Shown: positions 3,749-8,186 of the stretch, one piece after another
Layout: every line of letters starts with the position of its first letter
How positions within the stretch are numbered: position 1 is the first letter of the stretch
Assembly (NCBI GenBank): GCA_028710885.1
Contig: JAQTTG010000001.1
Location: 310,001 to 374,000 of the forward strand
Direction: 5' to 3'
Origin: Sulfuricurvum sp.
GTDB lineage: Bacteria > Campylobacterota > Campylobacteria > Campylobacterales > Sulfurimonadaceae
DNA: 64,000 nucleotides
The notes under the pieces: model-generated
What the model was told of the DNA's origin: nothing
Database searches by the model: none
The model's input: the letters and a program-made list of their open reading frames with translations, nothing else
Position numbers and translations under genes: made by a program

Positions 3749-5053
3749 ATGTCCAACTCTCTTTCCATCGTTATTCTCGCCGCCGGAAAAGGGAGCCGGA
3801 TGAAATCACCGAAAGCTAAAGTACTCCATGAGATTTGTGGACGAGAGATGCTCTACTACAGTATCAAAGCCGCATTAGAGATTACCGATGATGTCATCGT
3901 TGTTGTCGCCCACCAAAAAGATGCCGTCATCGCCGCAATGGAAAAACATTTCAGTAACTTAACCTTTATCACCCAAGATGCCGAGAACTTCCCTGGGACG
4001 GGAGGGGCGATGATGGGTGTCAAACCTCGATATGAGGATGTCCTCGTCCTCAATGGCGATATGCCGCTCATTACACGTTCGTCTATCGAAAAATTCCTCG
4101 CCAACCCTGCCGACATCGTGATGTCCGTTATCCCTCTCGATAATCCATCGGGGTATGGGCGTGTGGTGATCGACAATAACCAAGTAGTGCGTATCGTCGA
4201 AGAAAAAGACGCGTCAGATGCGGAAAAAGCGATCAACACCGTCAATGCGGGCGTCTATGCGTTCAAACATCACGTACTTCAAACCTATATTCCACGTCTT
4301 TCCAACGCCAATGCTCAAGGGGAATACTACCTCACCGACGTGATCGAAATGGCCCGTAATGACGCTCTCAGTATCTCTCCTCTCTACGTCGAAGAGGTGG
4401 AGTTCAAAGGGGTCAATTCCAAAAATGACCTTTCTCAATCCGAGATAATTATGATGAATCGCATCCGCAGAGGATGGATGGATGCGGGGGTGATTATGCA
4501 ACTTCCTGAAACCATCTACATCGAAGAGGGGGTAAAATTTGAGGGAGAGTGTATCGTCGAAAACGGTGTCCGTCTCTGCGGTAATACCCTCATCGTCAAT
4601 TCGCATATCAAAGCCCACAGCGTTATCGAAAATTCCATCGTGAAAAATTCCGATGTCGGACCACTTGCACATCTACGACCGCTCAGTGTTTTGGAAGATA
4701 CCCACATCGGAAACTTCGTCGAGGTAAAAAAATCGACCCTTACAGGTGTCAAAGCAGGACATTTGAGTTATCTCGGTGACGCAACAATCGACTCGGGAAC
4801 CAACATCGGTGCAGGAACGATCACCTGTAACTACGACGGGGTCAAAAAATACCAAACCATCATCGGTAAAAATGTTTTCGTCGGGAGTGATACCCAGCTC
4901 GTCGCCCCCGTAGAGATCAGTGACAATGTCATGATCGCCGCAGGAACTACCGTCACGGCAGGTAAATACGAAAGTGATATCCTTATCCTCAGCCGCACCC
5001 CGATCCGAAAAGTAGCGGGATTTTTCACCAAATTTTTCGGCAAAGGGAAATGA
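3749..5053 (+). CDS. glmU: Bifunctional GlmU (UDP-GlcNAc pyrophosphorylase / glucosamine-1-P acetyltransferase)
   Basis: This 434-residue enzyme makes UDP-N-acetylglucosamine for peptidoglycan and lipid A. The N-terminal nucleotidyltransferase begins with the signature LAAGKGSRMKS (residues 10-20). The C-terminal half is a left-handed beta-helix acetyltransferase with the catalytic-His region AGHLSYLGDA and the IGAGTITCNYDG motif. An AGGAG site precedes the ATG. It overlaps the next gene by ATGA and heads an operon running to truA. Confidence 0.96.
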   Translation: MSNSLSIVILAAGKGSRMKSPKAKVLHEICGREMLYYSIKAALEITDDVIVVVAHQKDAVIAAMEKHFSNLTFITQDAENFPGTGGAMMGVKPRYEDVLVLNGDMPLITRSSIEKFLANPADIVMSVIPLDNPSGYGRVVIDNNQVVRIVEEKDASDAEKAINTVNAGVYAFKHHVLQTYIPRLSNANAQGEYYLTDVIEMARNDALSISPLYVEEVEFKGVNSKNDLSQSEIIMMNRIRRGWMDAGVIMQLPETIYIEEGVKFEGECIVENGVRLCGNTLIVNSHIKAHSVIENSIVKNSDVGPLAHLRPLSVLEDTHIGNFVEVKKSTLTGVKAGHLSYLGDATIDSGTNIGAGTITCNYDGVKKYQTIIGKNVFVGSDTQLVAPVEISDNVMIAAGTTVTAGKYESDILILSRTPIRKVAGFFTKFFGKGK

Positions 5054-6336
5054 TGGAAATCCCTTCCAATCTTTTAGAGGGTAAAAAAATCCTCCTCGGT
5101 GTTACGGGCTCGATTGCGGCATACAAATCACTCGAATTACTGCGCCTCTACATCAAAGCGGGTGCAGAAGTGCGGGTTGTGATGACCCCCTCAGCCAAAA
5201 AATTCGTGGCACCGCTATCTTTTGAGGCATTGAGCCGAAACCGGGTCCTAGATGATGAGAACGAATCATGGGCAGGAGATGATTTTAACCACATTAAAAT
5301 CACCCAGTGGGCGGACATATTCGTCATCGCACCCGTTACCGCTAACACCATCGCCAAACTCGCCAACGGGATCGCCGATACGATGTTGACCCAATGCGCA
5401 CTCGCATTTTCTGGTATCAAACTCATCGCCCCATCAGCGAATACTGCGATGATCCAAAACCCGATCATCCAAGCCTCCCAAAAGATGCTCGCCATCGCCA
5501 ACTACGAGATCATTGCTACCCAAACCAAAGAGCTAGCGTGCCAAGTGATCGGGGACGGCGCTATGGCAGAACCGATCGACATCTTTTTTGAGACGGCAAA
5601 AATTTTGCTCAAAGAGAGTTTTTGGGCAGATCGACGTGTGGTTGTCACCGGTGGAGGAACACGAGAAAAAATCGATGAAGTACGTTATATCTCTAACTTT
5701 TCATCCGGAAAAATGGCAAAAGCCATCGCTCTGTCTCTCTATTTCAAAGGTGCGGATGTCTGTTACATTACTACAAAAGGCAACGAAGGGCTTCCCAAAA
5801 GCCTCTACACAATAGACGTAGACGATGCCAAAGAGATGTTGGAATATACCAAAGATGCCCTCCGTATCGCCAAAAAAGGGAAACTCTCTAAGCCCTCACT
5901 TATCCATGACGCACCGATAGAGCTGATCCAAAAACGCCCTTTCTTGTTTATGGTGGCGGCTGTGGCTGACTTTGCCCCTGCATTCCCGCAACAAGGAAAA
6001 CTCAAAAAATCGATGCTGGGTGAAAGTTGGCAGATTGAACTGACACAAACATCGGATATTTTATCCACCCTTATTCCAGATCGTGAGGGAATATCCACCA
6101 TCGCCTTTAAAGCGGAGATGGATTCTAACGAGGGACTTGCTAATGCAAAAGCTCTCTTGAATCAAAAAGAGGTCGATGCGGTGTGTTACAATCTTCTCGA
6201 TGATGCCAAAAGTTTTGGCGGAGAAGAGAACACCATCACCTTCATTACCAAAGAGAACCAGATAGATTTGGGACGACATAGCAAATTTAATCTAGCAGAA
6301 AAGATTCTACACCATGCCAAAGCGTGTAGCGAATGA
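5050..6336 (+). CDS. coaBC: CoaBC: phosphopantothenoylcysteine decarboxylase / phosphopantothenate-cysteine ligase
   Basis: This 428-residue bifunctional enzyme of coenzyme A synthesis has an FMN-dependent decarboxylase N-terminal half (GVTGSIAAYKS, the His motif FNHIKITQWAD, ANTIAKLANGIADTML, and a Cys in ELACQVIGDG). The C-terminal ligase half carries VVTGGGTREKIDEVRYISN, then SSGKM, and NLLDDAKSFGG. It overlaps glmU by four bases, and its stop overlaps the start of the uppS remnant by four bases, so translation is probably coupled. Confidence 0.95.
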   Translation: MMEIPSNLLEGKKILLGVTGSIAAYKSLELLRLYIKAGAEVRVVMTPSAKKFVAPLSFEALSRNRVLDDENESWAGDDFNHIKITQWADIFVIAPVTANTIAKLANGIADTMLTQCALAFSGIKLIAPSANTAMIQNPIIQASQKMLAIANYEIIATQTKELACQVIGDGAMAEPIDIFFETAKILLKESFWADRRVVVTGGGTREKIDEVRYISNFSSGKMAKAIALSLYFKGADVCYITTKGNEGLPKSLYTIDVDDAKEMLEYTKDALRIAKKGKLSKPSLIHDAPIELIQKRPFLFMVAAVADFAPAFPQQGKLKKSMLGESWQIELTQTSDILSTLIPDREGISTIAFKAEMDSNEGLANAKALLNQKEVDAVCYNLLDDAKSFGGEENTITFITKENQIDLGRHSKFNLAEKILHHAKACSE

Positions 6337-6425
6337 ACAATCAGCCTCGCCACATCGCAATCACCATGGAATACTCGAAAAAATTTAAACATGTTGAAAG
6401 ACGCTTTGAAGGATTAAACGGATGA
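6333..6425 (+). pseudogene. uppS: Internally deleted uppS remnant (30 codons)
   Basis: A 30-residue ORF starts by ATGA overlap with the coaBC stop and ends by ATGA overlap with the next gene. Its first 12 residues, MNNQPRHIAITM, resemble the conserved N-terminus of undecaprenyl diphosphate synthase (RHIAIIMDGN family motif). Its last residues, KHVERRFEGLNG, resemble the UppS C-terminus (ERRFGG). This is the syntenic position of uppS in Campylobacterota as I recall it. I read it as an in-frame deletion of roughly 600 bases or more that removed the whole catalytic core. Assembly collapse is the main alternative. The remnant cannot be an active enzyme. Confidence 0.7.
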
Positions 6426-7171
6426 ATTTACTGTTTGTTTTTATACTAGGATCGGTCATCGGCTCGTTTTTGAATGTCTTGATTGTCCGGACACCACGTG
6501 ATGAAAGTGTCTCATTCCCTGCATCACATTGCATGAGCTGTAATACACCACTTCGCCCATGGCACAACATACCGATCTTTTCATGGATCTTTTTACGGGG
6601 AAAATGTTCATTTTGCGAAGCAAAAATCTCGATACAATACCCAATTGTTGAGATTTTAAGTGCGCTTATTTTTCTATTTACTGCCATGAAACTCGGGATT
6701 AACCTTCCGGCATTCGGAATCGCACTAACCTTTGATTTGCTGCTTGCTCTTTCAGTCATCGATTATTATTACAAAATGGTTCCCGACAGTATCAATCTCT
6801 CTGCACTGAGTATCGCTATTATCAGCGTCAGCTCATTTTCACAGCTTGGCTACAATTTTTCCAATGCATTATTATTTGCAGGGGGCTTTACCCTCCTTCG
6901 CTTTTACCTCTCCTACATTATTAAAAAAGAGGCGATGGGAGAAGCCGATATCATGATCGCCGCAACGATGGGTGCGCTTTTGGGTACTAAACTCGCACTG
7001 GTAGCTATTTTTGCAGGTGCAGTTTTAGCACTCCCTGCCTTATTGTTAACGCAAGGAGAGAGTGAAGATTCCAAACAGCTTCCATTTATCCCATTTCTTG
7101 CAATGGGATGTTGGATTGTTTTAATGTTCGATACTTATGTAACGGCATATTTGGCAGGTTTGTATGGATAA
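6422..7171 (+). CDS. Prepilin leader peptidase (A24 family)
   Basis: This 249-residue polytopic membrane protein is of the PilD/GspO type. The N-terminal domain carries two CxxC pairs (CMSCN...CSFCEAK), which usually bind zinc or support methylation. The two aspartate motifs of A24 proteases are present as FDLLLALSVIDYYYK and GEADIMIAA. It would cleave and N-methylate type IV pilin-like precursors at the inner membrane. No pilin genes are in the window. It overlaps the uppS remnant and the following gene by a few bases. Confidence 0.9.
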   Translation: MNLLFVFILGSVIGSFLNVLIVRTPRDESVSFPASHCMSCNTPLRPWHNIPIFSWIFLRGKCSFCEAKISIQYPIVEILSALIFLFTAMKLGINLPAFGIALTFDLLLALSVIDYYYKMVPDSINLSALSIAIISVSSFSQLGYNFSNALLFAGGFTLLRFYLSYIIKKEAMGEADIMIAATMGALLGTKLALVAIFAGAVLALPALLLTQGESEDSKQLPFIPFLAMGCWIVLMFDTYVTAYLAGLYG

Positions 7172-8186
7172 ATTACGTCATTACATCATTTCAAATCTAT
7201 CATTACTGTTTTTCTCGATATTTTTGCCCCTTTTCGCAATCGCATCAGTCATTTTTATGATTAAACTTGCCACTTACACATCGATGATTCAACTCACTAT
7301 CGGTGAGATGGGAAAACTGTATCTTTTCGTATTACCTGAACTTTTATTTTATACTCTTCCTATTGCCTTCGTCGTCGGTGCAGCACTAACACTCTATCGC
7401 CTCTCAAATGACAATGAGATGGTAGTGGTTTTTTCATTGGGAATATCCCCCGCTTATGTGACCCGTGTACTGGCAAAACCGGCCCTGTTGCTCTCATTAG
7501 TGTTGTTAATCGATTTTTTACTGGTCACCCCTTATATCAAAATCATCTCCAGCAATTTTGTCGATCATAAAAAAGCCGAAGCAAAATTTAACCTCACCGC
7601 TTCAGAATTTGGTCACCATTTTGGCGACTGGATGCTCTTTATCAACAAAAGCGATAAGCAAAATCGCCGCTTTGAAGATGTTGTTTTATTTAACAAAAAC
7701 ATCAAAAATGAGATCATAGTTACCGCCAAAAGCGCAGAGCTTTTAAATAACAAAGGTGTCTTGCAACTGCGTTTACGCAATGGAGAAAGCTACAGCTATG
7801 ATAATCTAACATTGAAAAAAATGGTTTTTGACACTGTTTATATTAATGACGTCCTCAGCAGCGAAGAGACCATATACCGTGATCCTATCGATTACTGGAC
7901 GAACAACGATCTCAGAGAGCGCAAAAATCAGCGTCTCGTCACCAATACGCTCCTGAGCCTATTCCCCCTCATCTCTTTGTTTTTAATCACAGCTATGGGT
8001 ATCGTCCATGCCCGCCATCAAAAACGTTGGATATACATGTGGCTCTTTCTTAGTGTTATCGTATTTTATTCTGCGGCGATTATCATCCAAAAATGGCTCG
8101 GTTTCCATACGATTTGGGTCGTATCGATTATCTGGCTGATAATCTCCTATATTTTCTATCAACGATTGGTAGGGAGACGTTTTTGA
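7164..8186 (+). CDS. LptF/LptG-family (YjgP/YjgQ) permease
   Basis: This 340-residue protein has three N-terminal membrane helices, a periplasmic beta-rich domain (about residues 130-250) and three C-terminal helices, which is the layout of LptF/LptG. Those are the permease subunits of the lipopolysaccharide export ABC transporter. Sequence alone does not tell me whether it is F or G. It overlaps the prepilin peptidase by eight bases, and its TGA overlaps the TTG start of truA. Confidence 0.85.
   Translation: MDKLRHYIISNLSLLFFSIFLPLFAIASVIFMIKLATYTSMIQLTIGEMGKLYLFVLPELLFYTLPIAFVVGAALTLYRLSNDNEMVVVFSLGISPAYVTRVLAKPALLLSLVLLIDFLLVTPYIKIISSNFVDHKKAEAKFNLTASEFGHHFGDWMLFINKSDKQNRRFEDVVLFNKNIKNEIIVTAKSAELLNNKGVLQLRLRNGESYSYDNLTLKKMVFDTVYINDVLSSEETIYRDPIDYWTNNDLRERKNQRLVTNTLLSLFPLISLFLITAMGIVHARHQKRWIYMWLFLSVIVFYSAAIIIQKWLGFHTIWVVSIIWLIISYIFYQRLVGRRF

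Follow-up and report, generated by a model that had tools for sequence, protein, structure and literature searches.

Peptidoglycan synthesis normally cannot proceed without UppS. The uppS locus considered here can be set beside several described systems. Termination-reinitiation couples gene pairs that overlap in ATGA or TGATG (PMC6728339). Short upstream open reading frames (ORFs) have also been proposed whose sole role is the delivery of ribosomes (reviewed in PMC12548453). In Clostridioides difficile, uppS1 is the housekeeping gene, probably essential (PMC12548448), and uppS2 resides, along with manC, in a polymer locus (PMC4973711).

Within the window (the whole 64,000-nt stretch of DNA that was analysed, from a sulfur-oxidising species of Sulfuricurvum), a 30-codon stub stands in the place of uppS, between coaBC and pilD, and a literature search found no paper on such a coaBC-uppS-pilD stub locus. 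Like the systems that employ termination-reinitiation (PMC6728339, PMC10666635), the stub shares 4 nt with each neighbour and contains a Shine-Dalgarno (SD)-like motif; unlike them, its locus has a gene remnant as the upstream cistron, and coupling is here a prediction from the sequence. The proposed ribosome-delivering ORFs (PMC12548453) are matched by a 30-codon frame that finishes on the downstream start codon, but the stub derives from a deleted enzyme gene and its role would be an inferred one. As in xenologous displacement, a foreign-like homologue appears to have coexisted with, and then replaced, the native gene, with intermediates found in relatives; what departs from the usual course is that the newcomer sits in unrelated loci rather than in situ and that a two-ended stub was left in the old operon. 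With C. difficile, the genome shares an extra UppS paralogue in a surface-polymer locus with manC; both uppS genes are intact in C. difficile, whereas in the window's genome the housekeeping copy has been deleted and the polysaccharide-linked copy alone is left.

The uppS remnant in its operon

The remnant belongs to the conserved block glmU-coaBC-(uppS)-pilD-lptF (Table 1). The name pilD, which comes from the first-pass annotation and from reading of the sequence, is putative, as the NCBIfam search gave no match; orthologues of the gene are present in 39 of the 41 Sulfuricurvum genomes of our sample.

Table 1. Coordinates of the stub, its parts and its neighbours in the window
Feature	Position	Strand	Basis
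glmU, upstream gene of the conserved block	3749..5053	+	NCBIfam NF010939/TIGR01173, above cut-off
coaBC; ends in a 4-nt overlap with the stub start (ATGA)	5050..6336	+	TIGR00521, above cut-off; sequence
uppS remnant, 30 codons, in frame, without the catalytic region	6333..6425	+	sequence, BLASTP, alignment
5' stub, UppS codons 1-12, MNNQPRHIAITM	6333..6368	+	
Deletion scar/junction, EYS	6369..6377	+	no clear alignment to intact uppS
3' stub, last 14 (about 15) UppS codons, KKFKHVERRFEGLN	6378..6419	+	
SD-like GAAGGA before pilD	6408..6413	+	GGAGG in 24/25 intact relatives
pilD-like prepilin peptidase gene; its start overlaps the stub stop (ATGA)	6422..7171	+	sequence
LptF/LptG-family permease, next in the block	7164..8186	+	TIGR04407, E 1.6e-32, below its cut-off

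The translation of the stub is MNNQPRHIAITMEYSKKFKHVERRFEGLNG, followed by the stop. The first-pass annotation had read this ORF as the UppS N-terminus joined in frame to the UppS C-terminus, a reading that a lack of UppS similarity in alignment would overturn; BLASTP found similarity at both ends, residues 1-13 being identical to the intact UppS of a relative (G042) at 9 of 13 positions (E 5e-05) and residues 16-29 at 12 of 14 (E 2e-06), and the reading holds. Both homologous termini, together with the position between coaBC and pilD, the same as that of uppS in 36 of 39 genomes, point to descent from uppS. Compared with the 225-aa uppS of G042 and G010, 588 nt (196 codons) net are missing, in frame. 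The breakpoint is placed approximately, the matches at the two ends being taken from BLASTP and inspection; an automatic gapped alignment was rejected, having scattered the residues by chance. The 5' stub ends one residue short of the catalytic D13, the first residue of DGNGRW, which is lost, and in the 3' stub the genus-invariant RRFGG has become RRFEG. With neither the catalytic Asp of DGNGRW nor the complete fold, the peptide cannot act as a working prenyltransferase of the PF01255 family. The same stub was seen in no other genome compared.

Some observations concern the surroundings of the remnant. The CoaB half of coaBC comes in two Sulfuricurvum classes, with ~75-88% or ~56-61% identity to the window copy (loci L033-L061), and these classes do not track pilD: the window coaBC is near those of G052 and G015, the window pilD closest to that of G042. 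This discordance suggests recombination inside or near coaBC. In two Sulfurimonas-like assemblies (L133 and L134), there are ~750 bp extra between coaBC and uppS.

Native and type-2 UppS in the genus

Unless bases had been lost in assembly, the first-pass annotation expected another isoprenyl transferase at some other locus, and a PF01255 search of the window's genome (G000; 2.64 Mb, 29 contigs, 100% complete) did reveal a single full-length UppS of 227 aa (G000:C29:201070-201753). This protein aligns over the whole of PF01255 (271 bits, 1-219/219), exceeds the TIGR00055 and NF011407 cut-offs, carries DGNGRW, and has as its closest solved relative the UppS 2d2r (E 2.8e-73). Its gene is flanked by fcl and galU, followed by manC, a Nudix gene, gmd and a second fcl, with UDP-glucose dehydrogenase also among the neighbours; by gene content, the surroundings are a surface-polysaccharide (GDP-mannose/GDP-fucose) cluster. 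By homology, this enzyme, hereafter type 2, would function as an UppS, and it would supply all undecaprenyl diphosphate in this genome.

The sample comprised 41 Sulfuricurvum genomes, 39 of them with an assessable pilD (G017 and G056 are incomplete assemblies without pilD). When the region was compared among relatives, as the first-pass annotation had proposed, uppS was found directly before pilD in 36 of the 39, the exceptions being the window's genome with its stub, G003 and G055. In G003, the coaBC stop TAA is followed by the pilD ATG 5 nt on, and the canonical uppS is gone without trace; in G055, TAA is immediately followed by ATG (L067 4340-4360), and no UppS at all was found in this assembly, which is 82% complete. 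Type-2 genes are present in 4 of the 41 genomes, at three kinds of locus in scattered species. Besides the copy in the window's genome, there is one in G042 (near-complete, two contigs), which has an intact native uppS as well and where the type-2 gene adjoins ridA and galE near gmd and fcl; one in G017, between ridA and galE; and one in G003, between ispH and rpsA (L063 6111-6806). No uppS is found between ispH and rpsA in G000, G016, G017, G024 or G042, and by this comparison the G003 gene is an insertion. In the polysaccharide locus adjoining the type-2 uppS of G042, manC is seemingly truncated to ~124 aa (L065 5684-6058). On an 8-kb contig of another genome (G023:C7), close to one end (L068 30-674), lies the gene of a further, divergent PF01255 protein (138 bits), possibly a contamination of the assembly.

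In the UppS tree, the four type-2 proteins form one clade (support 100/99), apart from the native Sulfuricurvum clade. This clade groups with a family of the same order, f20 (support 97/86), and a tree constrained to unite native and type-2 proteins in a single clade is worse by 52 log-likelihood units and is rejected (AU p 0.028), the f20 relation and the AU value being of moderate strength in a tree of one protein and 228 columns. Hence, a different origin of the replacing copy, as in xenologous displacement, is indicated with moderate strength, and the coexistence intermediate (G042, with both genes) and loss of the native gene (G003, G055) are found among the relatives.

As to the number of losses, the neighbours of the window's genome in the recA and pilD-lptF trees are G010, G011 and G049, all with native uppS, whereas G003 and G055 are distant, and a clade uniting the window's genome with these two is rejected (AU p 7.6e-09). 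Since a single loss might account for both G003 and G055 (AU p 0.318) and the window's genome is clearly separate, the trees point to at least two independent losses of native uppS in the genus; three are not claimed.

Junctions, ribosome binding and the age of the stub

In the 25 intact relatives, the coaBC-uppS junction is ATGA in 24 and GTGA in one, so that, by this comparison, the coaBC-side overlap of the stub is ancestral. In contrast, uppS and pilD overlap by 1 nt, mostly as TAATG or TGATG, in all 25, which makes the ATGA on the pilD side a derived arrangement: in the window's genome, the old uppS stop TGA has changed to GGA and a new TGA lies inside ATGA. The proposal that both ATGA overlaps had been kept thus stands on the coaBC side and fails on the pilD side.

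The GGAGG of the relatives encodes the GG of RRFGG and provides a strong SD sequence ~9 nt 5' of pilD. Pairing with the anti-SD tail amounts to -5.5 kcal/mol in the window's genome vs a median of -9.9 kcal/mol in the intact relatives; for orientation, 64% of the first-ATG sites of 42 long window ORFs, not all of which are genes, are weaker than -5.5 kcal/mol. The use of GGAGG at RRFGG was discarded as proof of selection for the pilD SD because it also occurs in type-2 genes without pilD downstream; its near-universality in the native genes is only suggestive of such selection. Still, the short stop-start overlap and the upstream SD-like motif that characterize termination-reinitiation are both present (ATGA at either end; AAGGA, -5.5 kcal/mol), and ribosomes coming from coaBC could read the stub and stop on the pilD start, so that translation of pilD is probably preserved.

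In the retained codons, 11 synonymous and 4 non-synonymous differences from G010 are found, as compared to ~12 non-synonymous ones expected under random change; most of these changes presumably predate the deletion. So few amino acid changes imply either a recent deletion, with constraint acting on native uppS during most of the period since the lineages diverged, or constraint on the stub itself. Recent deletion is favoured because the genus-invariant G of RRFGG is lost in the stub. These data suggest a young stub, too young to infer selective retention, and a single species does not allow selection for coupling to be told apart from recency.

Probable displacement of the native gene and the fate of its remnant

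Taken together, the data very probably reflect functional displacement by the second UppS, followed by deletion of native uppS. The order of events would be as follows. Native uppS originally lay between coaBC and pilD, and the ancestor also had a type-2 UppS linked to surface-polysaccharide genes, probably from another Campylobacterota lineage. With two UppS present, the native copy would have become redundant and, for that reason, could be deleted. An in-frame deletion of ~588 bp would then have removed codons 13 to ~208, including the catalytic site, and left the 30-codon ORF, which ribosomes leaving coaBC could still read, stopping on the pilD start; that coupling operates at the locus in this manner is what we infer from the junctions.

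An altogether different account would be that a full-length uppS really occupies the locus and was lost in assembly or binning. The genome is indeed a draft of 29 contigs, and the first-pass annotation had offered as an alternative that the assembly lost about 600 bases. However, direct repeats of at least 9 nt are absent from 6201-6600, and the longest word common to both uppS ends in intact relatives is 5-7 nt; repeat collapse is unlikely since no such repeats exist to cause it. The intact UppS on C29, the clean removal of uppS from this site in G003 and G055, the presence of both copies in G042, and the marks of relaxed constraint in the stub (FGG to FEG, I/V to T, the shifted stop) further disfavour an artefact, which we consider very improbable. 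Somewhat less so, although still unlikely, is a history without horizontal acquisition, in which an ancient duplication within the family gave rise to the two UppS types and lineages then differed in whether they lost the native or the type-2 copy. The scatter of type 2 over species and loci and an AU value that is not extreme would fit such a history; the rarity of type 2 within the genus, the absence of any other UppS with more than ~67% identity to it among 399 sampled genomes of the order, and its place outside the native clade speak against it.

Displacement, which we prefer, leaves room for a further question, namely whether selection actively maintains the stub as a short ORF that delivers ribosomes, holding its frame, overlaps and SD and keeping pilD and lptF coupled to coaBC; such retention would add to displacement rather than exclude it. 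The stub is in frame and stop-free, overlaps each neighbour by 4 nt and has AAGGA 8 nt 5' of the pilD start codon. A 1-nt overlap and a strong SD occur together at pilD in every one of the 25 intact relatives; even G003 and G055, after clean loss of uppS, retain SD-like sites before pilD (-7.8 and -11.7 kcal/mol, respectively). Coupling through ATGA or TGATG has been described (PMC6728339), and short ORFs that deliver ribosomes have been proposed (PMC12548453). Yet the SD is weakened, the pilD overlap is derived, two relatives manage without any stub, and a young neutral deletion, seen in one species, accounts for the data. The first-pass annotation suggested that the stub may persist because it maintains translational coupling, which is accordingly plausible but unproven: frame, overlaps and SD-like motif agree with it, while the derived ATGA, the weaker SD, the stubless relatives and the apparent youth of the stub do not. 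We regard active retention as doubtful, and it is a little more doubtful still that an essential gene, made redundant by the polysaccharide-cluster homologue, was trimmed in frame to a 30-codon translational relay whose sole task is now to pass ribosomes from coaBC to pilD. A new function of the 30-aa peptide itself is extremely improbable: the amino acid changes since divergence are fewer than a neutral model expects, but a recent deletion would leave equally few, genus-invariant UppS positions are already changing, and the stub occurs in no other genome seen.

The process is an ordinary one; the case is unusually well resolved and caught at an informative stage. A single genus displays the stages of an essential-gene swap: native gene only, both genes, native gene reduced to a stub, and native gene gone without a trace. 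This suggests that a polysaccharide-linked carrier-lipid synthase can come to provide all of the cell-wall lipid. The genus is also a natural setting in which to test whether overlaps between operon genes limit the ways in which a redundant gene disappears.
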